Virus record (IMG/VR): IMGVR_UViG_3300034073_004595
Coordinates: 1 to 28,436 of that record
Direction: 5' to 3' (one strand)
Source of the DNA: a virus
DNA length: 28,436 nt
The position numbers and the translations under genes were made by a program. Shown here piece after piece: positions 893 to 25,400 of this stretch; the first letter of the stretch is position 1, and the number at the start of each line of letters is the position of its first letter. Under the pieces are notes generated by a model that was not told where the DNA came from, ran no database searches, and saw nothing but the letters and a program-made list of their open reading frames with translations.

Positions 893-2359
893 ATGATTCT
901 TTCTGACCCATCAGCTGAAAGAGCTGTATTAGCTGGTATATGTAAGTATGGTGAAGATGCTTACTTAGATATTGCGGATATTATTCAGGATAGTACTTTT
1001 ACTATTGATAGTAATAGTATTATATACAAATGTCTTAAAAATATTTTTGAAAAGAATGCGAATATATCTATAGATATAGCTGCAATTTTTTCTACAGCAG
1101 AAGAACTTAATCTAAGTCATATAGTGTCAAAAAAAGAAGAGGTCCAACACCTAAAAGCTATTTTTGACTTTCCTGTTAATCTAGACAATGTTAGAAAGTT
1201 TGCTGCTAAAATTCGTAAGCTAGAAATAGCTAGGCTTTTACGTAAGCAGCTAGAAAATGCTCAAGATAAAATTTTAGACGTTACAGGCAATGAAACTATT
1301 GGATCGATTATTAGCATTGCTGAAGATACCATTTTTGACTTTACTTCTCTCTTGAACGATACAGATAGTAATCCTGCGTCAATAGGGGACGATATAGAAG
1401 AATATATAGAGTATTTGTCTACTAATAAAGTTGATCAAGTTGGTATTCCTACTGGTTTTCCAGTATATGATCAAGCTATAGGGGGAGGGCTAAGGAAAAG
1501 CACTATCAATGTTATAGCGGCTCGACCAAAAGTAGGCAAAACCCTACTATCTGACAATATGGGTTTTCATATAGCTAATAAGCTACAAATACCAGTATTA
1601 AATATGGATACTGAAATGACCAAAGAAGATCATATTAACAGAGTACTAGCAATGATGACCGAGATAGAAATCTCGAACATAGAAACAGGTAAATTTACAC
1701 AAACACCAAATCAACAAACAAAAATACAAGAAGCCGTTCAACAATTGAAGAATACAAAACTATATTATAAATCTATTGCTGGTAAATCATTTGAGGACCA
1801 ATTGTCTATTATGAGAAGATGGTTAGTCAAAGAAGTAGGACTCAATGATGATGGAACAGCAAAAGACTGTGTTATTTTTTATGATTATTTGAAACTAATG
1901 GATAGTGCCGGAATTAGCCAAGACCTAAAAGAATATCAGGTTTTGGGATTCATGATGACATCCCTGCATAACTTTGCAACAAGATACAAGGTTCCTGTGG
2001 TTGCATTTGTACAGCTGAATAGAGACGGTATTACTAAAGAAAGTACAGATACTGCTAGTGGTTCCGACAGAATTATTTGGCTTTGTAGTAACTTCAGTAT
2101 TTTCAAAAGAAAAACTCCTGAAGAAATCTCTGAAGACGGACCTGAGAACGGCAATAGAAAACTTGTGCCTTTGATCTCAAGACATGGAGGTGGATTAGAC
2201 GATAATGACTATATTAACTGCCACATGAAGGGTTGGTGTGCTAAAATTACAGAAGGTAAAACCAGAATAGAAATCTCTCGCGGCGCTAAACAACAAAACG
2301 ATGGCTTTATTGTAGACTCTGAATATGATAACAATGAACAAACAATCCCGTTTGAATGA
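893..2359 (+). CDS. dnaB: Replicative DNA helicase, DnaB family
   Basis: This 488-residue protein has the length and layout of a DnaB-type hexameric helicase, which unwinds DNA 5' to 3' ahead of the replisome and recruits primase. Residues about 1-110 form the helical N-terminal domain (start PSAERAVLAGI), followed by a helical linker. The RecA-like motor starts near residue 180. Walker A is ARPKVGKTLL near residues 205-214, the same form as the bacterial ARPxxGKT. Walker B is CVIFYDYLKLMD near residue 325. The conserved PVVAFVQLNRDG block corresponds to the QLNR motif of DnaB. The C-terminal end has a basic stretch followed by an acidic tail. It overlaps the primase gene by 35 bases, the usual helicase-primase pairing. 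I am sure of the family; loader requirements cannot be read. Confidence 0.95.
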   Translation: MILSDPSAERAVLAGICKYGEDAYLDIADIIQDSTFTIDSNSIIYKCLKNIFEKNANISIDIAAIFSTAEELNLSHIVSKKEEVQHLKAIFDFPVNLDNVRKFAAKIRKLEIARLLRKQLENAQDKILDVTGNETIGSIISIAEDTIFDFTSLLNDTDSNPASIGDDIEEYIEYLSTNKVDQVGIPTGFPVYDQAIGGGLRKSTINVIAARPKVGKTLLSDNMGFHIANKLQIPVLNMDTEMTKEDHINRVLAMMTEIEISNIETGKFTQTPNQQTKIQEAVQQLKNTKLYYKSIAGKSFEDQLSIMRRWLVKEVGLNDDGTAKDCVIFYDYLKLMDSAGISQDLKEYQVLGFMMTSLHNFATRYKVPVVAFVQLNRDGITKESTDTASGSDRIIWLCSNFSIFKRKTPEEISEDGPENGNRKLVPLISRHGGGLDDNDYINCHMKGWCAKITEGKTRIEISRGAKQQNDGFIVDSEYDNNEQTIPFE

Positions 2360-3485
2360 TCAAGCTAAACTCAAAGTTGTATGTGATCAACTGTGTGATA
2401 ATATTGAAGACCTTTTGGGGTCTTTGGATATACAATACAAGAATGGTCCCAAAATGGTGTCCATGAGTTGTCCTATTCATGGAGGAGATAATATAGGAGC
2501 ATTGAACCTATATACTCAGGGAGACTCCTATAGAGGCAACTGGAAATGTCGCACACATGGATGTGAAAAAGTTTTCAAAAGCTCTATCATAGGGTTTATT
2601 AGGGGTGTCATGTCTCATCGTAAGCACGGATGGGAAAAAGATGGAGATAAAACATGTTCTTTCAAAGAAGCTGTTAATTATGCTACTTCTTTTTTAAAGG
2701 CAGACCTCAATGATATCAAAATATCTAAATTATCAAGAAATAAGCAATCGTTCACAACTGCTGTTCAATATATTGGAAATAATAAACCAATAATAACACC
2801 CACAGGAGGAATATCTAGGGCAATAGTACGTAAGTCTTTGGATATACCGGCGGAATACTATTTAAATAGAGGGTATTCAGAAGATATACTTAATAAGTAT
2901 GATATAGGATTTTGTAATAATCCCAAAAAAGAAATGTATAATAGGGTAGTAGCACCCATATATGATGATAATCATGAATATCTGATCGGATGTACAGGAA
3001 GAAGCATATTCGAAAAATGTGCCCATTGTAGTTGTTATCACGATCAAAACAATAGTTGTCCAGATAAAGAAAAACGATGGCTTTATCCTAAATGGAAACA
3101 TAGCTCCAACTTTAAAAGTCAGAATACTCTATATAACTACTGGTATGCAAAAGATTTTATATCTAAGCTTGGGTATGTTATTATCGTTGAAGGTCCAGGG
3201 AATGTTTGGAGATTAGAAGAAAATCATATTCATAACAGTGTAGCCATATTCGGTTCTTCAATGAGTGATAGACAAAAAATTATTTTGGACTCTTCAGGAG
3301 CAATGACTATAATAGTCTTAACAGATAATGATGATGCTGGCAGGCAAGCAGCAGAACAAATTAAGGCTAAATGCCATAAAACATACAGAGTATTTATTCC
3401 AACTATCACAGCATCAGATGTTGGAGACATGACGCAAGAACAAATATCTACAGAAATAGTAGGATACATAGAAAGCAAAATATGA
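2325..3485 (+). CDS. DnaG-like primase with CHC2-type zinc finger and Toprim domain
   Basis: This 386-residue protein makes RNA primers for replication. A CHC2-like zinc-binding site lies at residues about 49-80 (CPIH, then W-x-C and a second Cys in CRTHGC). A DnaG core follows, with YYLNRGYSEDILNKYDIG near residues 183-200 and a segment ending IGCTGR. The Toprim domain has the catalytic Glu in IIVEGPGNVW (near residue 290) and the metal-binding TDNDDAG motif near residue 334. An extra cluster, CAHCSCYHDQNNSC near residue 232, sits between the core and Toprim and could bind a second zinc. It stops after Toprim, without the long helicase-binding C-terminal domain of cellular DnaG. The ATG at 2325 overlaps dnaB by 35 bases; ATG 2334 is an equally possible start. 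Confidence 0.9.
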   Translation: MITMNKQSRLNDQAKLKVVCDQLCDNIEDLLGSLDIQYKNGPKMVSMSCPIHGGDNIGALNLYTQGDSYRGNWKCRTHGCEKVFKSSIIGFIRGVMSHRKHGWEKDGDKTCSFKEAVNYATSFLKADLNDIKISKLSRNKQSFTTAVQYIGNNKPIITPTGGISRAIVRKSLDIPAEYYLNRGYSEDILNKYDIGFCNNPKKEMYNRVVAPIYDDNHEYLIGCTGRSIFEKCAHCSCYHDQNNSCPDKEKRWLYPKWKHSSNFKSQNTLYNYWYAKDFISKLGYVIIVEGPGNVWRLEENHIHNSVAIFGSSMSDRQKIILDSSGAMTIIVLTDNDDAGRQAAEQIKAKCHKTYRVFIPTITASDVGDMTQEQISTEIVGYIESKI

Positions 3486-4072
3486 ATACAATCATTGCTT
3501 TTGCCGGAAGAAAACAGTCTGGTAAAACCACATGTGCTGAAGCTATTATTAGACATATAAATCAAACATCTCTCAAAGACAGTATTAAACTATACAATTT
3601 TGCTGATCCTCTCAAACAAGATGTCTGTATTAATATACTGGGATTAACATATAATCAGTGTTATGGTACTGACGAAGAAAAAAATCAACCAACAGATCTT
3701 GTGTGGAATAAACAAAGATTATCGGCTAGGGAAGTTATGCAATTTGTTGGAACTGACATTTTTCGCAAAATGAAACCCAATGTTTGGGCGGATGCCACTG
3801 TTACTAAAATAAAAACAGAAAACCATGATTATGCTGTTATAGCAGACTGTCGGTTTCCAAATGAGGTTGAGGCCATAAAAAATGCTGGTGGTACTGTTAT
3901 AAAACTAACACGAAACCCACATAATTCTGATCATATTAGTGAAACAGCTTTGGATCCAACAAATTATAATCCTTCAAATTTTGATTACGTGCTAGACAAT
4001 GTTAATTTGTCTATAGATGATCAAAACTTTCTGGCTATACAATACCTAAAAACCATTAAAGTCTTACCATGA
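3482..4072 (+). CDS. Deoxynucleoside monophosphate kinase (T4 gp1-like family)
   Basis: A 196-residue P-loop kinase predicted to transfer phosphate from ATP to dNMPs, supplying dNTP precursors in the infected cell. The P-loop is GRKQSGKTT at residues 8-16. The block ADPLKQDVC and the later LSAREVMQFVGTDIFRKMKPNVWAD are typical of phage dNMP kinases. The motif VIADCRFPNEVEAIKNAGG, ending in a strand with KLTRNP, is the family's LID/phosphate-binding part. It overlaps the primase gene by four bases (ATGA) and the nuclease gene by four bases, so it lies inside one polycistronic unit. In T4 this enzyme also accepts hydroxymethyl-dCMP, which matters given the glycosyltransferase cassette downstream. 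Substrate range cannot be told from sequence. Confidence 0.88.
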   Translation: MNTIIAFAGRKQSGKTTCAEAIIRHINQTSLKDSIKLYNFADPLKQDVCINILGLTYNQCYGTDEEKNQPTDLVWNKQRLSAREVMQFVGTDIFRKMKPNVWADATVTKIKTENHDYAVIADCRFPNEVEAIKNAGGTVIKLTRNPHNSDHISETALDPTNYNPSNFDYVLDNVNLSIDDQNFLAIQYLKTIKVLP

Positions 4073-5112
4073 TTATTGCTTATCTGCGTAGTTCTAGCTA
4101 TAATACCCATTCTATGTGTGAAATGCAATATTTTTTAGAGTATGTATTAGGCAACAGGTCTCCTTCCGGGAAAAAGGCTGATAAAGGCACAATATGCCAT
4201 AAGGCATTAGAAATATTAGCTTTTATCAAACTTAACCAACAAAATAATAACGAAACATTTGAAGATGATATAATAGGATTAGTAAACGTTAATACCTACA
4301 ATTTGGATACTATTATAGACCAAGTATACAAACACTATACATCACAATTTACACATCACATATGGGAGACTAGGGACTACAAGGATTGTCATAGCTGGAT
4401 TTATAAAGCAATTAATTATAATGATGGTATGTTCGACCCAAGAAACCACCATATAGTTCAGCCCGAACAACATTTTGATATAGAAATTAAGAGGCCGTGG
4501 TCTGCATATAAATATGATACTCCAGACGGTGTTATGTCGGGCCATCTGGCAATTAAAGGAACCATAGATCTAATCACAAAGGTTAATGATAACACACTAG
4601 AAATCATAGACTATAAAACAGGAAGAAGACTGGATTGGGCAACAGGACAAGAAAAAACTCCAGAAAAACTACAAAATGATCCTCAGTTAAGAATATATCA
4701 TTATGCAATTCAGCATCTGTATCCGGATATAGATCATGTTATTGTATCGATTAATTTTATTAACGATGGAGGTATGTTTTCGATCTGTTTTGACAAGTCA
4801 GATCTATATCAAACAGAAATGATGCTAAAACAAAAATTTGAAACTATCAAAAACACACAAATACCTAGACTTAATAAGACCTGGAAATGTACTAAATTAT
4901 GTCATTTCGGCAAAAGCACGTTTGAAAATACCAATATTCTGCCCATTATAGAATACAGAGATAACCAAGTCACACCCAACGGTCAATTTATGACAAAATG
5001 TGAGCAAGTCCATCACGATATTTCTCTAAAAGGCGTTAAAACAGTCATTGACGAATACACTCGCCCAGGTTATACTGTGGGTCAGTACAAGGCACCAGGA
5101 AGCGTAGAATGA
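4069..5112 (+). CDS. PD-(D/E)XK nuclease, RecB/Cas4-like
   Basis: A 347-residue nuclease of the PDDEXK_1/RecB-like superfamily, likely acting on DNA ends during replication or recombination. The N-terminal motif S-M-C-E-M-Q-Y-F-L-E-Y is the usual opening of RecB/Cas4-type nucleases. GTICHKALEIL (about residues 44-54) supplies the helix with the metal-binding His. The catalytic core is GTIDLI with D167, then IIDYKTGR with D181 and K183. QLRIYHYAI near residue 207 is the conserved Q-x3-Y helix. Cysteines C17, C274, C278 and C311 resemble the one-plus-three arrangement that holds an iron-sulfur cluster in Cas4/AddB proteins, though the spacing of the last is wider than usual, so cluster binding is uncertain. 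Both ends overlap neighbours by four bases. No cas genes are nearby, so a CRISPR role is not indicated. Confidence 0.85.
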   Translation: MIIAYLRSSSYNTHSMCEMQYFLEYVLGNRSPSGKKADKGTICHKALEILAFIKLNQQNNNETFEDDIIGLVNVNTYNLDTIIDQVYKHYTSQFTHHIWETRDYKDCHSWIYKAINYNDGMFDPRNHHIVQPEQHFDIEIKRPWSAYKYDTPDGVMSGHLAIKGTIDLITKVNDNTLEIIDYKTGRRLDWATGQEKTPEKLQNDPQLRIYHYAIQHLYPDIDHVIVSINFINDGGMFSICFDKSDLYQTEMMLKQKFETIKNTQIPRLNKTWKCTKLCHFGKSTFENTNILPIIEYRDNQVTPNGQFMTKCEQVHHDISLKGVKTVIDEYTRPGYTVGQYKAPGSVE

Positions 5113-6980
5113 ACTATATACCACTTCACTGTCATTCCATGTTTTCTCTTTTGGACGGACTCTCAAAACCTGAACAAATGGCTGATAGGTGCAAAGAGAT
5201 AGGAGCAACAGCATGTGCCATCACGGATCACGGAAACATAGCTGGAGCGGTTAAGTTTTATCTCGCTATGAAAAAGGCCGGAATTAAACCAATTTTGGGT
5301 TGCGAATTATATATTTGCAAAGAACACCCCTCTATTAAAACCAAAGAGAACAAAAAACTAAGTCATTTTATAGTTTTAGCCCAAAATTATCAAGGATGGA
5401 AGGATCTAATCAAACTTGTTTCAGAATCAAATAGACCCGAATTTTATTATCATAAACCTAGACTCGATATAAAAACTCTATCGGTCATATCTCATAGTAA
5501 TTTTATTGGTATAACAGGACATCTTGGTTCAACACTTGCTGACCTTATCATAGAACAAGATCAGCTTGTCGATAACTGGGAAAAAATCGGAATAGAGCAT
5601 ATAAATACTTTAAAGTCTATCTTTGATGATAGATTATTTTTAGAAGCACAATTGATGGACCAAGACAATTTGCCTGTACAAAAAGTATTAACAGACGCCA
5701 TTAGAAAACTTGGTAAAAAGACATCAACCAAAGTTATTTGTACCCCAGATGCCCATTACTGCAACAAAGAAGACGCTGTTGATCAAAGGGTTTTATTATG
5801 TAACAATCTGAAAACGACTTTTTCTGAGGTCAACTCTAAACTTATCAATAATGAAGACATAGCCATGGGTTGTTTTTTTTATTCCGACAATTACCACATT
5901 CTTTCTCAAGAAGAAATGTCGGCACTACACGAACCTATAGAGATAGAAAATACTAACTATGTTGCTAATCTTATCGAAGATTATGATATTATCAGTAAGC
6001 CAAGATTGCCTCCTTTTAAATGTCCTAATAATATGGACGACGCAGAGTATCTTAGGGAACTATGTCGCCAAGGATGGAAAAAGAAAATAGCTAATGTTAT
6101 TCCAAAAGAAGAACATCAAAAATATGTAGACAGAATTAAATATGAATTAGATGTTTTGCAGGGTGCTGATCTTAGTAGTTATTTTTTGATAGTGCAGGAT
6201 ATCGTTAATTATGTTAGAGATAACGGGTGGTTGCCTGGACCCGGCAGAGGTAGTGCTGCTGGGTGTCTTGTTTCTTATTTGATTGGTATTACTAACATAG
6301 ACCCCATACAGTATAATCTATTGTTTGACAGATTTTACAATTCTGGTAGAAATTCTGCTGACCATATCTCAATGCCCGATATTGATGTAGACGTTCCGAT
6401 CAATAAAAGAGAACAAATTATACAATATATCAAAGATAAATATGGACAAGATAAAGTTTCTCAAATGGTTACATTCAATACCATCAAAGGTAGAGGGTCA
6501 TTAAAAGATGTTCTAAGAGTATATGGCAACATATCATTTGATGAAATGAACCAAATCACTAAAAATATTCCAGACGAAGCCAAGATAGCAGACGAGCTTC
6601 AAGAAATGAAGGAAGAAACAGGAGAATCATCAATCGTTAGATGGGCATTAGAAAACCAGCCAGATAAGCTAAAAGAATGGTGTTATGTAGACGATAACAA
6701 CGAAATACAAGGACCACTTGCAAAAAGATTCGAACAGGCTATAAGATTAGAAGGAGTAAAATCCAATCAATCCAAACACGCTGCCGGTATTGCTATTTCA
6801 GCAGAGCCTTTATCTGATGTGTGTCCTATGGTTTATGATGCTAAAAACGACCAGCTTATTGCCGGAATGGAAATGCAAGACCTCGAAGCTATAGGGGTTA
6901 TTAAATTTGATATATTGGGTATAGCATATTTAGATAAAATCATGTGTATCTCAGACCTATTAAAAAATAAGGAGAGTTAA
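5109..6980 (+). CDS. dnaE-N: DNA polymerase III alpha (DnaE-type), N-terminal half: PHP and palm
   Basis: A 623-residue protein matching the first half of bacterial DnaE. Residues 1-270 are the PHP domain: LHCHSMFS (H7, H9), AITDHGN, LGCELYI, a His before LAQN, and PDAHY all look intact, so most PHP metal ligands appear to be kept. The palm and thumb follow, with the GPGRGSAAGCLVSYLIGIT motif near residues 376-395. The catalytic aspartates are D424 and D426 in MPDIDVDV and D601 in IKFDILG. The protein ends about 20 residues after the third aspartate, just where DnaE would run into the fingers domain carrying GVFQLES. That part is encoded separately at 7860-9503. The stop is clean, with a strong ribosome binding site for the next gene in its last codons, which argues for a real gene boundary rather than a sequencing error. 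Confidence 0.95.
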   Translation: MNYIPLHCHSMFSLLDGLSKPEQMADRCKEIGATACAITDHGNIAGAVKFYLAMKKAGIKPILGCELYICKEHPSIKTKENKKLSHFIVLAQNYQGWKDLIKLVSESNRPEFYYHKPRLDIKTLSVISHSNFIGITGHLGSTLADLIIEQDQLVDNWEKIGIEHINTLKSIFDDRLFLEAQLMDQDNLPVQKVLTDAIRKLGKKTSTKVICTPDAHYCNKEDAVDQRVLLCNNLKTTFSEVNSKLINNEDIAMGCFFYSDNYHILSQEEMSALHEPIEIENTNYVANLIEDYDIISKPRLPPFKCPNNMDDAEYLRELCRQGWKKKIANVIPKEEHQKYVDRIKYELDVLQGADLSSYFLIVQDIVNYVRDNGWLPGPGRGSAAGCLVSYLIGITNIDPIQYNLLFDRFYNSGRNSADHISMPDIDVDVPINKREQIIQYIKDKYGQDKVSQMVTFNTIKGRGSLKDVLRVYGNISFDEMNQITKNIPDEAKIADELQEMKEETGESSIVRWALENQPDKLKEWCYVDDNNEIQGPLAKRFEQAIRLEGVKSNQSKHAAGIAISAEPLSDVCPMVYDAKNDQLIAGMEMQDLEAIGVIKFDILGIAYLDKIMCISDLLKNKES

Positions 6981-6985
6981 AATAT

Positions 6986-7168
6986 ATGTCAATTAAAAAA
7001 TTTTTTGATATACCAGTAGGAACCACTTTTACTCTTAATAATGTTGAATACGTAAAAGTTACAGAAGATAGAATTTCGTGCTGCAAGGTTTTGAATGCAG
7101 AAACCGTAACAGAACCCAAAACTAAGATTCAGGTTATCCCTATTACAGAAGTTGAAGTTAAAGACTAA
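6986..7168 (+). CDS. Small conserved-type phage protein of unknown function
   Basis: A 60-residue protein between the first polymerase half and the exonuclease. It is preceded by a good ribosome binding site, GGAG at 6971-6974, eleven bases before the ATG and inside the last codons of the upstream gene. The sequence has the pattern FFDIPVGTTFTLNNVEYVKV, a compact beta-type fold seen in many small phage proteins of unknown function. The C-terminal half ends in an acidic tail (EVEVKD). Two adjacent cysteines (near residue 32) are not in a zinc motif. Its stop codon overlaps the exonuclease start by one base (TAATG), so the pair should be translationally coupled. No function is recognised; being co-made with the replicase suggests, but does not show, a role there. 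Confidence 0.7.
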   Translation: MSIKKFFDIPVGTTFTLNNVEYVKVTEDRISCCKVLNAETVTEPKTKIQVIPITEVEVKD

Positions 7169-7857
7169 TGATTAATTACAACAAAATTTGTGTTTTCGAT
7201 TTTGAAACCGACGGGTCTAATCCTTTTGAGTGTAGTCCAGTGCAACTTGCTGCTATTATGATAGATCCGATTAAGCTGGATATTGTTCCTAACTCTGATT
7301 TTAATATTTACTTCAAGCCAGAAGTTTTAGAAAAAGATGACAATTACCAGTATACTACAGACATATTAGATTTTCATGCGAAGGTAAAAGGATCATCAAA
7401 AGATGATATTCTGCAAGAATGGAAAAAATATCCGTCTCAGGAACATTCCTGGTCAATGTTTGTTAATTACTTAGAGAAGTATCATACCAGAGCATCTAAA
7501 AAAAGCCAGTTTTCTGCACCTATAGCTTCTGGTTACAATATATATCGATTTGATTTACATATTATAGATCGTCTCAGCAAAAAATATGGAAACACCAACA
7601 AAGAAGACAGAACAAATCTGTTCTATCCAAGAGATGTTGTTGATATTATGAATTTAATATTCTATTGGTTTGAAAATAATAATGACCTTAAAAATTATAC
7701 TCTTGATTCTTTAAGAGAATATTTTGGAATTTCAAAAGAAGGAGCACACGATGCAGCTAAGGATATACAAGACAGCGCAGAAATCTTGATAAGATTCTTG
7801 AGACTCCACCGAAATTTGTCACAAAAAATTAAGTTTAAAAACGCTTTTGCTTCATAA
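7168..7857 (+). CDS. DEDDh 3'-5' exonuclease, DnaQ-like (proofreading)
   Basis: A 229-residue DnaQ-family exonuclease, expected to remove misincorporated 3' nucleotides. Motif Exo I is CVFDFETDG (D11, E13). Exo II is SGYNIYRFDLHII (D129). Exo III is GAHDAAKDIQDSA, with H194 and D199, giving the DEDDh set. Length is close to that of the E. coli epsilon subunit (about 240 residues). I see no clear clamp-binding motif, though a C-terminal peptide could be missed by eye. The gene begins on the stop codon of the 60-codon gene and ends two bases before the second polymerase half, so it sits physically between the two parts of the polymerase it presumably serves. Its upstream region has only a weak ribosome binding site, so coupling to the preceding gene is likely. 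Confidence 0.9.
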   Translation: MINYNKICVFDFETDGSNPFECSPVQLAAIMIDPIKLDIVPNSDFNIYFKPEVLEKDDNYQYTTDILDFHAKVKGSSKDDILQEWKKYPSQEHSWSMFVNYLEKYHTRASKKSQFSAPIASGYNIYRFDLHIIDRLSKKYGNTNKEDRTNLFYPRDVVDIMNLIFYWFENNNDLKNYTLDSLREYFGISKEGAHDAAKDIQDSAEILIRFLRLHRNLSQKIKFKNAFAS

Positions 7858-7859
7858 TA

Positions 7860-9503
7860 ATGATATCTACACAGAATCCCAATAAAAAAAAGAAACTACA
7901 ATATTCTTGCGGTTGTTCTTTCAACACCATAGATAATGACTCGGATAAAATAGACTTTGATCCTGTTCATAACCCTATCAATTTTAATTGCTCCAAAACC
8001 TGGGCACTTATAGGAGATGGTAATACTAAGGGTTGTTTTCAGCTTGAGTCTAGATTAGGTAGATCTATGGCTAAAAAACTTAAGCCAACAAACATAGAAG
8101 AGCTATCTGCCCTAATCAGTATTCTGAGACCAGGATGCTTGGAAGCCGTAAGAGACGGAAAAACTGTGTCCAACCACTACATAGATAAAAAAAATGGCCA
8201 GGAATCTATAGACTATTATCATCCAGCACTAGAGGAAACACTTGGCAAAACCTATGGAGAGATGATATATCAAGAACAGGCAATGGAGATTGCAAAAAAT
8301 ATAGCTGGTTTTAATCTACAAGAAGCAGACATGCTTCGTAAAGCTATTGGTAAAAAGAAACCAGAAGAAATGGCAAAAGTAAAATCTAAGTTTTTGAATG
8401 GGTCCAAAGAACTGGGTGTCGTTTCCTTTGAACAAGCAGAAGAAATTTTCGGATGGATAGAAAAAAGCCAAAGATATTCTTTTAACAAAAGTCATGCTGT
8501 TTCCTACGCTGTTAATGCTTATCTGTCTGCTTACGCAAAAGCTCATTTTCCTAGGATATTTTTTGCTTCGTACCTAAGATTTGCGAAAGATAAAATTGAT
8601 CCTAAGGCAGAAATTAAAGAACTGATACAAAACGCTAACGCAATGGATATAGGCGTCTATGTGCCAGACATTAGAAATATGAATAAATTTTTTGTTCTCA
8701 AAAATAACCATATTTATTTTGGTCTCACAGATATCAAAGGGTTCGGCGATTCGGTATATAACAAACTATGTGAACTTATAAAAAAAGAACATATAGATTT
8801 TGATACTGTGTCTTGGTTAGAATTTGCATGTAAAATTTTATTGAATATTAATTCTATATCAGCTAAATCATTAATCAAGTCTGGTTCATTGTCTTTTCTA
8901 AAGAAAAGCAGAACATCAATGCTTTTCGAATATGAACTATTGGGGAAATTAACCAAAAAAGAAAGCGGTTTTATTTGTGATAGAGCGGATCGATATAAAA
9001 ATTTAAACGACGCATTGCTGGATTTATTCCATAATCATAGACTAACTAATAAAAGAAGCCAGACCATTAATACTATTATACAAACCTTTAATAAGCCCCC
9101 GTATTCTCTTCAGGACAGCCCGGAATGGATAGCCGACTCAGAAGAAGAAATACTGGGCTGCAGCATCACTTGCTCTAAAGTAGATATGTATGATATTTCT
9201 ATGACTAATGCAACATGCAAAGACTTTCATAATATGTTAAATACTGATAATATTATTGTGTGTGGAGAAATAGACACTATCAGTATCATTAAAACAAAAT
9301 CAGGCAAAAATCCTGGTGCGGAAATGGCCTTTGTTTCGATGAGCGACGGATCAGGAGTGATAGACAGCGTTATTTTCTTTCCAGAGGCTTACAAAGAATT
9401 TCGAAACATTCTTTTTCAGAACAATGTTATTATTGTCAAAGGGAACAAAACAAAGAGCAAGGATGGACTCGTTGTCCAAAAAGCCTATATTCCTAGAACT
9501 TGA
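7860..9503 (+). CDS. dnaE-C: DNA polymerase III alpha (DnaE-type), C-terminal half: fingers, HhH, OB
   Basis: A 547-residue protein matching the second half of DnaE. It begins with about 57 residues not typical of DnaE, basic at first (PNKKKK) and holding C17, C19 and C44. It then joins the DnaE sequence at GCFQLESRLGRSM (from residue 58). The fingers follow: LISILRPG, TYGEMIYQEQAMEIA, EADMLRKAIGKKKPEEMAK and RYSFNKSHAVSYAV. A helix-hairpin-helix region lies around IYFGLTDIKGFG. The final 100 residues form an OB fold (start IIVCGEI, with SGVIDSVIFFPEAY). It stops after the OB fold, so there is no obvious tau-binding domain. No catalytic aspartates are present, so it must work with the N-terminal half. 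The two halves total 1170 residues, close to a full bacterial DnaE. I see no ribosome binding site before the ATG. Confidence 0.95.
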   Translation: MISTQNPNKKKKLQYSCGCSFNTIDNDSDKIDFDPVHNPINFNCSKTWALIGDGNTKGCFQLESRLGRSMAKKLKPTNIEELSALISILRPGCLEAVRDGKTVSNHYIDKKNGQESIDYYHPALEETLGKTYGEMIYQEQAMEIAKNIAGFNLQEADMLRKAIGKKKPEEMAKVKSKFLNGSKELGVVSFEQAEEIFGWIEKSQRYSFNKSHAVSYAVNAYLSAYAKAHFPRIFFASYLRFAKDKIDPKAEIKELIQNANAMDIGVYVPDIRNMNKFFVLKNNHIYFGLTDIKGFGDSVYNKLCELIKKEHIDFDTVSWLEFACKILLNINSISAKSLIKSGSLSFLKKSRTSMLFEYELLGKLTKKESGFICDRADRYKNLNDALLDLFHNHRLTNKRSQTINTIIQTFNKPPYSLQDSPEWIADSEEEILGCSITCSKVDMYDISMTNATCKDFHNMLNTDNIIVCGEIDTISIIKTKSGKNPGAEMAFVSMSDGSGVIDSVIFFPEAYKEFRNILFQNNVIIVKGNKTKSKDGLVVQKAYIPRT

Positions 9504-9527
9504 CACAATGGAACGACGACATATGAT
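9500..9527 (+). promoter_or_regulatory. Sigma70-like promoter for ssb
   Basis: A perfect -35 box TTGACA (9500-9505) is followed after 16 bases by TATGAT (9522-9527), one mismatch from the TATAAT -10 box. The -35 box overlaps the stop codon of the second polymerase gene. Transcription would start near 9534, about 40 bases before the SSB start. This is the only strong promoter I found in the + strand block. It fits the need for far more SSB than polymerase. Recognition by host RNA polymerase is inferred. Confidence 0.6.
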
Positions 9528-9560
9528 AGAATATGTTTGGTTTTTGGATTTTTCTTTACA

Positions 9561-9565
9561 AGGAG
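9561..9565 (+). promoter_or_regulatory. Strong ribosome binding site that fixes the SSB start
   Basis: AGGAG lies ten bases before the ATG at 9576. It settles the start at 9576 rather than at the upstream ATG 9537, which would add 13 residues and has no ribosome binding site. Confidence 0.75.
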
Positions 9566-9575
9566 ATTTAAACAA

Positions 9576-9962
9576 ATGAATATTAATATTCTGCGCGGTA
9601 ATTTAGCTAGAGATCCTGAAGTACGTGTTGTGACTATTAATGGTAAGCAAACTTCTGTAGTAAACTTTACTGTAGCAGTCTCTCGTGAATATACTAAGGC
9701 AAATGGAGAAAAGGATAAGGTTACCACATTCGTGCCATGTGAAGCATGGGATAGTGGTGCTGAGATAATAGGGGACTCCTTTAGAAAGGGAGACCTAGTA
9801 ATGGTAGAAGGTTCGCTACGAAACGACTCTTGGGAAAAGGATGGCGTTAAGCATAATTCTTTGAAAGTCCGAGTTAATAACTTTTCAAAGATTACCAAGC
9901 TCTCAAGAAATCGTACAGACAAAAGTCTAGACAAGAGCGAAGCTGAAACGGTTGCTTTTTAA
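9576..9962 (+). CDS. ssb: Single-stranded DNA-binding protein (SSB)
   Basis: A 128-residue bacterial-type SSB that coats single-stranded DNA at the fork. The OB fold starts with INILRGNLARDPEVRV and continues with VNFTVAVSREYTK, then FVPCEAWDSGAEIIGDSFRKGDLVMVEGSLR, all hallmark SSB segments. The C-terminal tail is short and basic, then mildly acidic, ending SEAETVAF. It ends in Phe but lacks the run of aspartates (DDDIPF-type) used by bacterial SSB to bind partner proteins. Loss or change of the tip is common among phage SSBs and suggests phage-specific partners. The gene has its own promoter and a strong ribosome binding site, and a hairpin follows it, unlike its coupled neighbours. Confidence 0.93.
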   Translation: MNINILRGNLARDPEVRVVTINGKQTSVVNFTVAVSREYTKANGEKDKVTTFVPCEAWDSGAEIIGDSFRKGDLVMVEGSLRNDSWEKDGVKHNSLKVRVNNFSKITKLSRNRTDKSLDKSEAETVAF

Positions 9963-15654: not shown

Positions 15655-16119
15655 ATGAATATCGGTTTTTACTTATTAGATGTAGATATGTCTGAAAAAT
15701 GTAAAATTATCTTGCAAGCAATCAATGATTATTGCAAAAATAACAGACAAAATAATGTTGTATTATTTAATAACCAATTTAATGCTGTCGATCTAGATCC
15801 CAAATACTATATACTACATCTGAATCAGGCAAAGTTTTTTAAAGGTTTACTGTTTGTTTTTGGTACTAAACCAGCTCTATTAACAAACTCCTTTCCTTGT
15901 GCTAAAAAACAAATAATTTACATGACCGAACCAGAGTGGTCAGATCATCCGGAATTACCATTTACTGTGTGGTCAAATATCTATCTTAATGATAGCACAG
16001 AACTACTGACAGATAATCTTGATACTTATAATTTAATAAATATATGCTGGAAGAAACCACTGTCCCTAATTAAGTCTTTTGACGCTGAGGCTATTAATAA
16101 TGTCATACAAAGCTTATAA
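15655..16119 (+). CDS. Short Rossmann-like protein, cassette member of unknown function
   Basis: A 154-residue protein with a good ribosome binding site (AGGA at 15644-15647, seven bases before the ATG). The N-terminal strand MNIGFYLLDVD, followed by a helix, resembles the acceptor domain of GT-B glycosyltransferases. A second strand group appears at QIIYMTEPEWSD. There is no donor-binding domain, so alone it could not be a complete GT-B enzyme. It ends inside the start region of the nuclease gene, overlapping it by 20 bases. I assign it to the sugar cassette by position and style only. Confidence 0.5.
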   Translation: MNIGFYLLDVDMSEKCKIILQAINDYCKNNRQNNVVLFNNQFNAVDLDPKYYILHLNQAKFFKGLLFVFGTKPALLTNSFPCAKKQIIYMTEPEWSDHPELPFTVWSNIYLNDSTELLTDNLDTYNLINICWKKPLSLIKSFDAEAINNVIQSL

Positions 16120-16891
16120 TTCTTATAGTGATCAACAAAAACGAGAACTTATTAAAGAGCTTTATCTTAAAGATAAAAAGTCTTTTCAAGATATTGCTGA
16201 TCTATTATCTACTTACCCAAATAAAATTAGAAGAGACGCAATCAAAATGGGAATACCCATTAGGGATAAGAGTGCAGCACAATCTAATGCATTGTCTTCT
16301 GGTAAGCATAAACATCCAACAAAAGGAACAACACGTTCAGACACCACAAAACACAAGATAGGCTTGGCCGTAATGTCTTCTTGGGATAATTTATCAAATA
16401 AAGAAAGAAAACAAAGACAAGAAAATAGCAAACAGCTTTGGGATAGTTTGGATGAAGAAGAAAAAAAATATAGACTTACTCTAGCTCATCAAGCGGTTAG
16501 AGATAGTAGCAAACAAGGATCAAAGCTAGAAAAATTTTTATTAGAAAAACTGTTATCAGACGGATATAAGGTTGATTTCCATAAAGAACAGATTTTGTCG
16601 AACACGAAGTTGCAGATAGACCTGTTTCTTCCTACTATGAGTATAGCCATAGAAGTCGATGGGCCTTCTCACTTTTTGCCCGTATGGGGAGAGGACACCC
16701 TACAAAAAAATATAGAATATGATCGTAAAAAAAACGGACTTATTATAGGTAAGGGACTAAAATTAATTAGGATCAAGCAAACACATGATTTTTCTATGGC
16801 GAGATCACAAGAAGTCTATCTCAAACTGATAGACGCAATCAAGGAAATTAAAAACAATAAAACTATTACTAATCTGGATATAGAGGACTAA
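16100..16891 (+). CDS. Homing-endonuclease-like protein (HTH/NUMOD plus Vsr/DUF559-type PD-(D/E)XK)
   Basis: A 263-residue protein taken from the ATG at 16100; an ATG at 16079 would add seven residues and overlap the previous gene further. Residues 1-60 form a helix-turn-helix type DNA-binding region (FQDIADLLSTYPNKIRRDAI). Residues about 70-95 (GKHKHPTKGTTRSDTTKHKI) resemble the NUMOD3-like motif of phage homing endonucleases. The C-terminal domain has LQIDLFLPTMSIAIEVDGPS, with the Asp and Glu-x-Asp of a PD-(D/E)XK core, then a conserved His and a YDRKKNGLI helix, as in Vsr, DUF559 and I-Bth0305I-type enzymes. It probably cuts one strand or both of a specific site and spreads its own gene. 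No intron or intein surrounds it. Confidence 0.75.
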   Translation: MSYKAYNSYSDQQKRELIKELYLKDKKSFQDIADLLSTYPNKIRRDAIKMGIPIRDKSAAQSNALSSGKHKHPTKGTTRSDTTKHKIGLAVMSSWDNLSNKERKQRQENSKQLWDSLDEEEKKYRLTLAHQAVRDSSKQGSKLEKFLLEKLLSDGYKVDFHKEQILSNTKLQIDLFLPTMSIAIEVDGPSHFLPVWGEDTLQKNIEYDRKKNGLIIGKGLKLIRIKQTHDFSMARSQEVYLKLIDAIKEIKNNKTITNLDIED

Positions 16892-19412: not shown

Positions 19413-22400
19413 TTATACCCATACTTTTCCTGTTTTAGCTGATAAAAATTGAGATCTCATATCTTGCGTTGACCAACAATACCAATCCGCAGCAGCACAA
19501 GGCATAGGCGGCTCTTGCCAATTTGGGTCTAATCTGTGTAGGTTATACCTATAATAACTAGATATACCATCAGTACAACCATTGTCTCTAATATAATTTT
19601 CAGTTAATACAAATGTTGCTGGTATTCTGGGAGGTACTGGATAGAACCATGCATTCCATCCCCACCAATCACCCCATCCTGGTAAAGTAAACCATGATGG
19701 GAAACCGAGACTCCAGCATTGAAATTGCCCAGCTCTATTTATTTGACCGACAAAATCCCAACCGCCACCGTCTGGAGGAGCTTCTGGTAAAGTTAGCGCC
19801 GGTATATCCCCTTCTGGATTTACTGTTGTTTGTCCAGCACAAACTGCTCCCTCTGGCTTTAAAACATCCTGTATTGTTTTTGGCCTAATATATTCATATT
19901 CATAGTAAGCTACTTCTACATTAACATACCATTCTTGTACTTCAACATCTGTTTTCCCAACTGGTCTAGCCTTAAACGATTTGAATGAATAGGTTTTATA
20001 CTGAGGCATGGAACTACAAGAACCAGGGACTATGCCATGCATAATATCTTCTTCTGGTATGTGTACATTTTCCAGGCATCGACCGCCCTGAGAATAACTT
20101 TCATCTATAGAAGCTTTCCATTCATTTAATTGTTCGACAGCTGCTGGTCCTTCGGCCATGGCAGGAACACCAAACTCGCAAATCATTTGACCTAACGGAC
20201 GATGTGTTCCCTCTCCTACTGGTTGTCCTCCACAGCCACCCATGAACCATCTGTCCACCGGCACCGCAGCGGGAGTAGACTGCGAGTAACTCATTGATCC
20301 TAAACAAGCAAACCATTCAAAACCCTCAGAACACTGTTTGCGTAGACTGGATCCAGCACCATAGCACGGAGGACAACAAAAACCACCACCGCCACCAAAA
20401 CAACAACTATTTCTACAAGCTCCTTCTTCGGATTCGTTAGTAGCTCCTATGTTGATCAATGGATTTGGATTAATCTCTCCATATACAAATGTACCAATAA
20501 TACATTTTCTTTTTTCTTTTATCGTAGCATAAGTTTGTTTTTGTTCAGGTATATCTATTTTTAATGGAGGTTGATTACAGGGAGAGCATTCCGAGTTAAT
20601 AGATTCTTGAATAACAAAATCAGATGGTAAACTATTGATAGTAATATATGGGCAAGCCCCATTAAAATCTACAATAGCACAGCTAGAGGCCGTACCCTCT
20701 TGCGATATAGTTGCTGGATCGTATGCTGATGATCTTCTCATAACAATCCTAGTATCGGGATAAGTGATGGTTACAGCATAATTATTGTATGTTATAGTAC
20801 ATAAATTTGTTGGACATAATGGGTTGTAGGGATCGAATTCTTTGAGTGTCTTTCTATGATAAATATTTTTTACGGTAGCTGGTCTACTTAAGCATTTACG
20901 AACAACACATGTTTCAGTCCAAGGTCCTCCTGGTATATAGTTACCACAATAAGCTCCACATCCTTCACATCCTCCAAAAACATCAATAATTAGATATGAA
21001 CATCTTGGACAAGCTCTTGGTCCCCAGCATCCTCTAGCAATACCGGGAGATGCAGGAAATCCACAGTCATAACCAAATGTTTCGTATGTTTCTATTGCTT
21101 CTGTTGTAGGGATGACTGGATCAAAATGATTTTCTCTATAGGTATGTCCGTATAAAGTAAAGTTATTACGACACACAGAAAAATTATATTGAAAGTCATC
21201 TCCTTCTGTTTCTACCAATGTTTCTTTACAAGTAGCACATTCTGAGTTTCTATTGCGCCTACAATATGCATATTGAAAATCTTGACATTGATCAAAATTA
21301 GCAGTACATCTAGAGACAGTAGGTCTCGGCTCGTATTGAATACCCGGAGGGAAAATCATGGTTGCTTGATAATTTCCCGGAGTCCATGTTTGTCCAGTGG
21401 TCACCGAGACGTCTTCGCAGGAGTTGTCTGGGGGACCAGACCAACTCTCTCCAGCTTTAACCGCAGAAGCAAAAGAGCCCCAGCTGTAAGTTGCTCTAGT
21501 TGTTCGTGATCCAACCTTAATAATGGTTTCATTGTCCGAAGATGGTTCGGGGGCGCTGTTATTATTTTCTGTAACTATTAGACTATTTTCTTGATACTTT
21601 TCTGTATAAATTTTTCCATAGATAGGCTGATTATTAAATGTTCCTTGCAAAGCAATGATGGTTTCTGTGTCTGTTTCCTCTCGTACGATGGTAAGGTCTA
21701 TAATTACTGATCCTATAGATATATTAATATTTTTACCAACAGACAATATTCCATCAATAGACAAAGTGCTACTATAAATTAAATTATTAGGAATAATAGA
21801 GCGATCATAGTTATATAAAATTTGATCATAAATATCTTTTGCTGTAATTTTAGGTTCACTATAAGACAGCAAATCTCTAATAGTTAATGTTTTATTTTCT
21901 TGAAGCAGAATATCTTTATTGATAGGAATTTTTTCTCCGTGCATTATTCTAAACAATATTTCATTTGCCATATCGTCTGTTTGTTTGATTAATAAAGGAT
22001 GGTCCTCTACTGTAGTAAGGTTGGACTGAAATCTACTATCTAGTGTACTAAACCTCAGATTAAGAGGCCTAAGCATATCAGAAGAACAGCTATTTGTTGA
22101 ATCTAGCCATGAATCAGGTTTAATTTCGAATCTTTTTATTGTGGTCACCGATTTTGTGCCAAATGAATTATAGTTTCCAGCATCATAAGATATAATATAT
22201 GGAATACCATCAGACACAGAACGCAACGATAGGGTTCTGTTTTTTGCTATTTTAAATTCCGAGGTCAGATTTACAGATCCTATATTTTTAATTTCGCATG
22301 GTTGTTGACCACATATAGTGGGATCATCGGTGTCGCAATAAATGGGATGACTATAAAAAACTTGTTTTCTAATCTCTGTAGTGGAACCCATATTAGAAGG

Positions 22401-25400
22401 TAAAAAAGAATTACTTGTGGAAGATAGTGTACTTATGCGTGAAGAAGGATTAAAAACTCTATAACAATTAACAGACTCTTCTTCGTCTATTACGGAAGTT
22501 TTGTTGGTTTTATTTAACCAATAAATCGGATCGTCTATACGCAAAGTAGTAGAATAAATTGTTTGAGTAGGAACGAAAGCTGAAACCAGCTCGGTGTCCG
22601 AAGGTAAATTGATCCAAAATTTTCTATCACTACTAGCATTGGGATCAATAAAACTACCCCACTCATAATCATCGGGCAACTCATTATACAACGAAGTTGT
22701 TTTGATTGTTCCAGAAATGGGTTTGGTGGAAGATTTTATTAAGTTATTTAATGAAGATATAATAGGTGAACTACTTGTTGTAGAAAGCAAATTAATATCC
22801 ATAAAAGGCAGATAATTATGATAATTTTCTAAATTAGTACTATAAAATTTATCGCTATAATCAGTATTATATTTTTGATGTATATTGTAATATACTAAAT
22901 CATTATGATCAATAGTATATGTAATATTGTTATTAGAAACAAATATCTGATATCTATGTTGATTTTGTAGATGATTATTAACAATCAGTTTATAAAAAGT
23001 ATTTTTATATGTAGGAGTAGGATACCAATACGATGCATCAACATTGACGGACGTTAAATCGTCTAATATTTCGCCATCATAATACAAAACATCTCCCCAC
23101 TTAGTCTTTTGAGGACTACTTAGATAAGTATCAGATTCTGATCTTAACCATAATGTAGGAACATATACAGTTAAAGAATACTGTTTTATGATGTTCTCGT
23201 CCTGCTCTGCCAAGAAAAGCAGTAGAGGATCTATCATATTATATCCGCTGCGAACCTTATTTTGTAAAAGAAATTTTGTGTAGACTTGTATCTTGGTCGC
23301 TTCGTTACCCGTAAAGAAACTGGTAACAGATTTATCGAATTTCACTAATAATTCTTTTTTAAGAATAGTATTAGTATCTAATTCTCCTCTATTATTGTAT
23401 AAAGCTATTTTGCGATTAACATTTTTTCTAGAGTTATATACATAGCCCGCTCTATTTGTTGCGCTGTATGGGATATGTAGATCGCTAAAATTATGATACA
23501 AATAATTGTAATCTGTGGCCACATAGGATTCTGGACTAGTTTTATTAGGACCACGATATATCCATCTACGACCATCTCCAAATTGTACGATACTACCAAA
23601 AGTTATTTTGTTTTGGGCTTCTTCGCTCATGGTACCAACGTCATCTAAGGATGCTATTTGAATAGGTATTGAGGGATCAATTTCTGGCACCATAAAATAA
23701 TATCTTGATCCAGGAAGAATAATGGTCTTATCACTAGATACTTCAAATTTATCAAATAATATGGGACTAATAGCATTAGTTGAAAAATCAAATTTTGTTG
23801 TATGATTGCTAATAAAATTGAGTGGAACGTGCTGCTTAGGGGATATGGGAATAAATCCGGGAATATTCAAAGAATCTGTTTTATGATGAACATACTCAAA
23901 CCATGATGGTCTACCCACGAACGTATAATTTTGATGTTTGTATCCATACCTATTAGGAATTATCGCATTATACCAATTACCATTAATTTGCAGATAAAGT
24001 CTTGGCTTGCGGTGTCTGTCAAATTGACTAATGTTGTTAAATAAATTTTGAATAGATTCGTCTATGTCACCTACAAGCACGGTCCCCGCATCATAAAAAT
24101 CATTGTATAAAGGTTGGTCATAATATATTTTATTATTTTTGATTGGGGACAAACCATGATAAGTAGAGTCTGTGGTTAAACCACTATTGGGATGAAAAAA
24201 TCCTTTTTGTAGCGTACCCTGCATTACTGGAGGATCGATACCAAATGCCAATATTTGTTTGCGGGGCCTGTTGATGAAATTTAAACTAACAGTAACTGTT
24301 TCGTCTCCTCTAGAAGTTATTCCAGGATCTCCGTACGATACCGGCTGGCCGAATATATAATCTTGTCCGGAAACCAAATCGCCAGACGGAGGTGCCAATA
24401 CGTATTTTTCGTCTTTAGTTAGTTTTTCTAGATATGGATTTTGTAAATAAACAGATAGGGCTGTGGGTATCGTGCTTCCTTTAGGAAAAAAATTTAAAAT
24501 CTGGTCTTTCCATATGGTGTTGTCGCTACTAGCTCCGGCTCCTGATGGAGCAATATTAATTTTAGTAAAAAATCTTTTCCATGCTGGATTATTTCTTGCA
24601 GTAAAATAAAAATCATTAAAAGTATATAGAGCAAACCTTGCTGCTAGATCTCCGTATTCGCTAACGGAAATCAATACATCCGAATGATCAGTAGAAAATT
24701 GTTCTGGTTTTACAACCCATTCGCTATTTACATAGTTTTTTAATGATATCGAAATTGATCTTTCACAACCATAGGGCTGGTCTGGAATAATTTTATTCGT
24801 TAGTCTTGGTAAAGAACCCCCTGCCGTTAAAACTCCTTGACCAAATAAGCTATCAAGCTCGGATTGAGAATAACCACCATATTTCCTAAGAGTAGGAGAA
24901 TTTTTAGTAGAAAGACCAGGCAGAAAAACATCAGCATAACCATAAGTATTGCCGTCACAATTGTATGGATGAGCTGAATAATCACTAATATTTAACCCAT
25001 AACACTTGCACGCGTTTAGATCCACGGGAAAACGCTTACATGACCAAGAAGAGGTACTAGAAGATTGTAATTTTTCGGCATATAATCCATATATTTTTAG
25101 TCCTATGTCCTTGGTAACAAAAGACAGCTTAGGATTTCCTGGAGTAATAGTGCTATTAAGTCTATCAAATACTGTTAATCCGTCTTTATTACCAAAAGAT
25201 CTACTGCGAAAAAAAATACCATTATCTTTATGAAATGCAATAATATCTATGTATGGATTAAAGGCTAGAGCATTATACGATCTTTTTATTCGTAAAGTAT
25301 CATCAGAAATATATCTTTCTTTTCTATTTCCTGGCGGATTTTGAGAATTATTAAATCTTTTGGCTAGCTCAGTAAAACAAAAATCTCCGTCTCTACATAA

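Follow-up and report, generated by a model that had tools for sequence, protein, structure and literature searches.

Division of a replicative polymerase between two genes is known from both bacteria and phages. In cyanobacteria, the intein-split DnaE is cut at a site other than the linker between palm and fingers. Splitting of dnaE by an intein has been noted in the literature (PMC3919608). Aeromonas phage 25 carries a split PolB, 43A/43B, the halves of which co-purify and have polymerase activity (PMC2988022). Group 2.2 jumbo phages contain a minimal split PolIII α, which is thought to reconstitute the enzyme (Iyer et al. 2021, PMC7824862). Here, we analyzed a 28.4-kb virus record, a metagenomic contig (hereafter the window), in which DnaE is encoded as two halves, dnaE-N and dnaE-C, separated by genes for a small protein (S) and an exonuclease (X). 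The features of the locus are as follows.

893–2359, + strand: DnaB-type replicative helicase (Pfam/PHROG), in the operon shared with dnaE-N and dnaE-C
2325–3485, + strand: DnaG-type primase (Toprim)
3482–4072, + strand: deoxynucleoside monophosphate kinase
4069–5112, + strand: PD-(D/E)XK exonuclease, immediately 5' of dnaE-N, a neighbour kept in relatives
5109–6980, + strand: dnaE-N, 623 aa, with PHP, palm and thumb (Pfam/PHROG, AF2)
6969–6974, + strand: Shine-Dalgarno-like AAGGAG for the 60-codon gene, within the final dnaE-N codons (from sequence)
6986–7168, + strand: S, 60-aa small protein, found in every relative checked; M1, F15, C32, C33 and N37 are invariant
7168–7857, + strand: X, 229-aa DEDDh 3'-5' exonuclease (Pfam RNase_T, alignment, PDB profile matches)
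7860–9503, + strand: dnaE-C, 547 aa, with fingers, helix-hairpin-helix and OB fold (Pfam, AF2)
7860–7958, + strand: extra residues capping the N terminus of dnaE-C; C17-G-C19 is invariant, and intact DnaE has no counterpart
7989–7991, + strand: codon for C44, the third invariant Cys of dnaE-C (alignment)
9570–9962, + strand: single-strand DNA-binding protein (SSB), immediately 3' of dnaE-C, a neighbour kept in relatives

A preliminary description of this DNA had placed the two polymerase halves at 5109–9503, with a 60-codon gene and then a DEDDh exonuclease between them, and the open reading frames are as it claimed. The halves are separated by 879 bases and have a combined length of 1170 aa; D601 (KFD601ILG) is indeed the third catalytic Asp, with dnaE-N ending ∼20 residues later, and GCFQLES begins at residue 58 of dnaE-C. 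The start of dnaE-N lies within the upstream PD-(D/E)XK nuclease gene, with a 4-nt overlap. Elsewhere in the window, a 2653-aa protein (19413–27374, − strand) has no PHROG match and is probably structural, and a weakly HNH/homing-endonuclease-like protein (16079–16891, + strand) is encoded 3' of glycosyltransferase genes.

The domain content of the halves is complementary. Pfam identifies PHP and DNA_pol3_alpha (3.5e-75) in dnaE-N and DNA_pol3_finger (5.4e-46), HHH_6 and OB in dnaE-C, and PHROG 405 is covered nearly without gaps, by dnaE-N at 42–616 and by dnaE-C at 622–1077. Jointly, the halves contain everything that marks a DnaE-type (C family) polymerase, namely PHP, the palm DxD plus third Asp, fingers, HhH and OB. 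The single-polypeptide form, which is usual for DnaE and not defining of homology, is absent, as the protein is split in all members of the family. An AF2 model of dnaE-N (pLDDT 86) aligns with Taq (Thermus) α 5–640 (Z 40.1) and E. coli α 4–577 (Z 37.6). The dnaE-C model (pLDDT 83, pTM 0.60) aligns with Mycobacterium tuberculosis DnaE1 605–1099 (Z 15.7) and E. coli α 573–927 (Z 15.1), with a high rmsd of 11–13 Å that probably stems from relative domain placement in the model. Sequence profiles agree with the structural placement of both halves. Since each model matches its part of single-chain DnaE over the full length, nothing has been lost where the halves meet, and the split lies in the stretch that links the final palm helix to the fingers. 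We recognised no tau-binding domain at the C terminus of dnaE-C.

The boundaries had been described as clean. The split is sharp, but dnaE-C is not a bare cut: it begins with ∼30 extra residues that are absent from intact DnaE and carry an invariant CGC. Most intact DnaE proteins examined have 54 residues between the third Asp and FQxE, compared to about 23 on dnaE-N plus 63 on dnaE-C in the split family, a longer span because dnaE-C has gained this extension. The catalytic residues are invariant in an alignment of both halves and the exonuclease. All three catalytic Asp residues (the D424/D426/D428 region and D601) reside on dnaE-N, and a conserved R/K-rich fingers segment, LRKAIGKKKPEEM, on dnaE-C. 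Hence, the earlier proposal that the active site forms from two polypeptides holds for dNTP and template binding but not for the metal ligands, all of which dnaE-N supplies.

Scanning viral contigs with dnaE-C brought up 403 relatives; another scan, which started from a distant member, brought up 234, and the sets share members. We examined 160 of these stretches, on contigs of up to 231 kb. In every stretch that could be judged, the order is nuclease, dnaE-N, S, exonuclease, dnaE-C, SSB, so the gene order that was to be sought in other phage genomes is shared by all judgeable relatives; the split is real. A few relatives have extra genes inserted within this row. Two of them (L060:3378–6003 and L050:2359–5988) contain 2.6–3.6 kb of extra genes between the exonuclease and dnaE-C, one of which encodes a protein whose N terminus resembles that of a type IV pilin (GFTLVELLVVIAIIGVLVGLLLPAVQ). 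When dnaE-C is clustered at 98% identity, the 135 complete loci fall into 82 groups; at 80% they fall into 54. Intergenic gaps are mostly +1/+2 nt between dnaE-N and S, and −8/−4 nt both between S and X and between X and dnaE-C; that the genes mostly touch or overlap suggests translational coupling. Median dN/dS is 0.034 for dnaE-N, 0.032 for X, 0.033 for dnaE-C and 0.13 for S. The genome collection yielded the family in only three MAG contigs (Flavobacteriales, Chitinophagia and Alphaproteobacteria), too few and too likely mis-binned for a host to be assigned. Tail sheath (PF04984) had no matches in 23 contigs.

Could the arrangement be an artefact, or could the halves be joined after all? 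The only point in favor of misassembly, or of a decaying pseudogene, is that the window is a 28-kb metagenomic contig. Yet the arrangement is repeated in >80 distinct clusters with dN/dS near 0.03, and such recurrence in all relatives is neither chance nor misassembly. The preliminary description would have counted an undivided dnaE at this locus in a related genome against the split; we looked for one among the relatives and found none. A DNA pattern for a fused family member (FDILG[VI]A to GNTKG, at 90–120 and 175–205 nt) gave zero matches, in a search with a sensitivity of about two thirds, as the N motif occurs in its exact form in only 107 of 160 known loci. We give the artefact reading a negligible probability. 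Fusion by frameshifting or readthrough was also considered and rejected, because the frame of dnaE-C relative to dnaE-N varies freely (63/45/27).

Inteins are classically found in DnaE, and the halves might in principle be joined post-translationally by a split intein, as in cyanobacteria. The family even includes three-piece dnaE genes with a true split intein, at a second break in dnaE-N (GRG/S; L035:3184–4394, L046:3184–4402 and L142:4169–5379), where the junctions read GPGRG/CFLPDSRV...VEGIGVHN/SAAG and a separate nuclease (endonuclease) gene between the intein parts makes this a Dassa-type fractured gene. That break is at another site. At the palm/fingers cut, no member has recognisable intein blocks at the end of dnaE-N or the start of dnaE-C: the N tail extends 20–30 aa past D601, and the C head is the CGC cap fused straight to the fingers linker. 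Joining by an intein is, on this evidence, extremely unlikely. A further rival takes the 879 bases for an intron, or the split for the recent scar of a mobile element, with the mRNA spliced to one frame; it draws on insertions at a different position. In L139 (4383–5525), L070 (3400–4527) and relatives, ∼1.1 kb is inserted at the catalytic DIDVD motif, and the L139 insertion carries a LAGLIDADG endonuclease; this site is also the place of the cut in phages phi13:1, phi127 and G, with HEG/intron-like insertions in the latter two. By contrast, at the split studied here, most members have S, X and dnaE-C overlapping one another by 4 or 8 nt. Purifying selection acts on S and X, neither of them a homing-type endonuclease, and the C head shows constraint at the protein level (pN about 0.06 versus pS about 0.6). 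Region 4900–9700 has no Rfam match, a weak negative in that insert-bearing relatives lack one too. We therefore consider splicing very unlikely. The inteins and the LAGLIDADG insertion serve as positive controls, indicating that elements of this kind can be seen where they occur. At the palm/fingers cut in the relatives examined, no homing endonuclease, intein or intron was seen.

The reading we favor, and hold with considerable confidence, is that of a naturally split DnaE, the two chains of which assemble non-covalently and give the phage a replicase of its own. The complementary halves, the lack of an intact dnaE in any relative and the strong purifying selection on both halves all argue for a working polymerase assembled from two chains. 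Twenty contigs of 105–231 kb each have one PF07733 (palm) and one PF17657 (finger) match. PolA, PolB and a second DnaE were not found in these 20 contigs, which are possibly incomplete, so that another polymerase could be missed. Nor was a beta clamp (PF02767) found in the large contigs, which, as regards processivity, counts against the replicase reading. The operon neighbours of the split gene are a helicase, a primase, a nucleotide kinase and SSB. In the mechanism we propose, dnaE-N (PHP-palm-thumb) and dnaE-C (fingers-HhH-OB) would be translated separately, side by side, from one coupled operon that would also supply the proofreading exonuclease and S. The two chains would then dock in the manner of palm and fingers in a one-chain DnaE, with no covalent joining, and the normal fold would be re-formed across the palm/fingers boundary. 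The co-purifying, active 43A/43B halves of the split T4-type polymerase set a precedent for such docking (PMC2988022). Assembly is the most likely outcome, and the assembled enzyme would be active and recruit the exonuclease. A plausible role for the CGC cap is to seal or shield the end or interface that the split creates.

X matches Pfam RNase_T (1.5e-12) and, in PDB profiles, ExoI/PolC-exo. Its D-x-E, D and H-x4-D motifs are present, with D11, E13, D129, H194 and D199 invariant in the alignment. E. coli epsilon binds the PHP domain of alpha, and by analogy X may be seated on the PHP domain here. Its position in the operon suggests that X may be an epsilon-like subunit of the split polymerase. 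S has an invariant CC motif, and in the loci where a tblastn search had failed to detect it, S was found after all, with its SCC motif. The preferred two-chain assembly could be extended to a four-part core, in which S and/or X are structural subunits that hold the halves together rather than mere operon neighbours; the preliminary description had likewise suggested that the exonuclease or the small protein helps to join the halves. S and X always lie between the dnaE halves in the relatives, and both the CC motif and the known epsilon–PHP contact fit this idea. Nonetheless, the universal presence of S and X in the family is, by itself, co-inheritance only, and the dN/dS of S is about four times that of dnaE-N, X and dnaE-C. 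We regard such structural roles as doubtful. A fuller version, with palm and fingers as permanently distinct subunits, bridged by the Cys cap and held with S and X such that their separation allows control of replicase assembly, seems to us rather unlikely.

The 5' end of dnaE-N, uninterrupted in the window, is interrupted in 35 of 147 classifiable loci (examples are L134:4214–4290 and L075:3230–3300; also L157, L026, L070 and L006). A pattern scan returned 59 stretches, at least three of them unrelated chance matches, and 37–39 distinct interrupted elements were collected. Each runs from ATG through YxPLHVHS to TAA or TAG, then a further 5–9 nt, then HYSLLDGL or MYSLLDGL; the total gap is 8–12 nt, and hence the downstream frame differs between members. 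Joined, the parts restore exactly the PHP motif of uninterrupted members (YxPLHVHSHYSLLDGL). A first hairpin (ATGGACRTG/CAYGTCCAT), formed by the upstream portion, is paired in 98.9% of cells, and 6 of 20 show a double change from GC to AU. A second holds the stop codon and the gap, and its arms covary (UAAGUG/CACUU; UAGAGAAU/AUUCUCUA; AGCGAAU/AUUCGCU), with a register shift that was read by eye. Three interrupted examples fold 3.8–5.1 sd better than shuffles, while a hand-entered control of the uninterrupted type does not, and CACTTTTGGATG is present in 30 of 39 interrupted versus none of 65 uninterrupted genes. In 23 of 37 elements the landing codon is UCN and so matches the TCT/TCC take-off codon; in the others it is ACT, GCT or GCC. 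Bypassing in T4 gene 60 involves a 5' stem-loop, a take-off stem-loop, a stop after the take-off codon and a matched landing codon, and a major review states that shorter natural counterparts have long been presumed (PMC5009743). Judged by their sequences, the interrupted starts share these features and are candidates for a short ribosome-hopping element like that of gene 60, held by the same gene in many relatives. Restart at a TTG after the motif is possible; restart at a GTG would be in frame only in some members.

The split family forms one clade on a long stem (SH-aLRT 100 in a quick tree), and this monophyly indicates that the split is old. Bacterial DnaE proteins from a genome scan are mostly 27–34% identical to dnaE-C, with 41% over the best short segment. 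Splitting of DnaE has also occurred independently in other lineages of phages. Corynebacterium phage P1201 (NC_009816) likewise has adjacent genes, gp59 and gp58 (A7IYD0, A7IYC9), and the break falls in the same linker between palm and fingers, with gp59 ending in LDCLGLKTMTIISDTIKSVNEGGKSDIKPTDDV* and gp58 beginning 30 aa ahead of FQFEG. The P1201 genes (44915–48275) overlap by 29 nt, with neither an intervening gene nor a CGC cap, and the protein is about 32% identical to that of the window. Zion, a relative in the P1201 subfamily, has one intact dnaE, so the P1201 split is a separate event and probably younger. As a cultured phage, P1201 offers a convenient laboratory system for two-gene DnaE.

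In other phages the cuts lie elsewhere. The dnaE of Cellulophaga phage phi13:1 is in pieces, cut near the DIDVD motif, although its clade mates DAC23 and MA9V-3 have an intact gene; phi13:1 gp39, used as a query, found no relatives in viral contigs. Mammaliicoccus phi127 is also cut near DIDVD, with a homing endonuclease at the break. DnaE of Bacillus phage G (NC_023719) is spread over three genes in ∼11 kb (gp329, gp331 and gp339), with breaks at the DIDVD motif and just ahead of the third catalytic Asp and the homing endonuclease gp330 in the first gap; L193, a relative of phage G, is fused at the palm/fingers boundary. In Microbacterium phage Hager and Mycobacterium phage Aikoy, dnaE is also multi-gene; the first of the pieces is short (353 and 333 aa, respectively), which places the cut further upstream. 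PaP1 was considered as another source of split DnaE and rejected, as it gave no match.

Split DnaE genes are annotated in several phage isolates, and in the open literature searched we found no published description of this family or its arrangement. The family, a large lineage of uncultured phages, shows that a family-C replicase can remain stably divided between palm and fingers through long evolutionary time with no splicing. It provides a natural system for palm/fingers docking and motion, and should be useful for building controllable split family-C polymerases. Cyanobacterial DnaE is likewise encoded by two genes, but there a split intein joins the products. In Dassa-type fractured genes a homing endonuclease and a split intein separate the parts, whereas here an exonuclease and S intervene. 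The gp43 of Aeromonas T4-like phages 25 and 44RR is likewise a two-gene replicative polymerase, but of the PolB family and with a split linked to intercistronic sequence and a homing endonuclease. The split PolIII α of jumbo phages retains only core catalytic and template-binding domains, encoded by distant genes beside PolB (PMC7824862); the window's family has full domains and adjacent genes, with no PolB in the 20 contigs. Split phage DnaE is not unprecedented; what is new here is an ancient, fixed split with the exonuclease between the halves.
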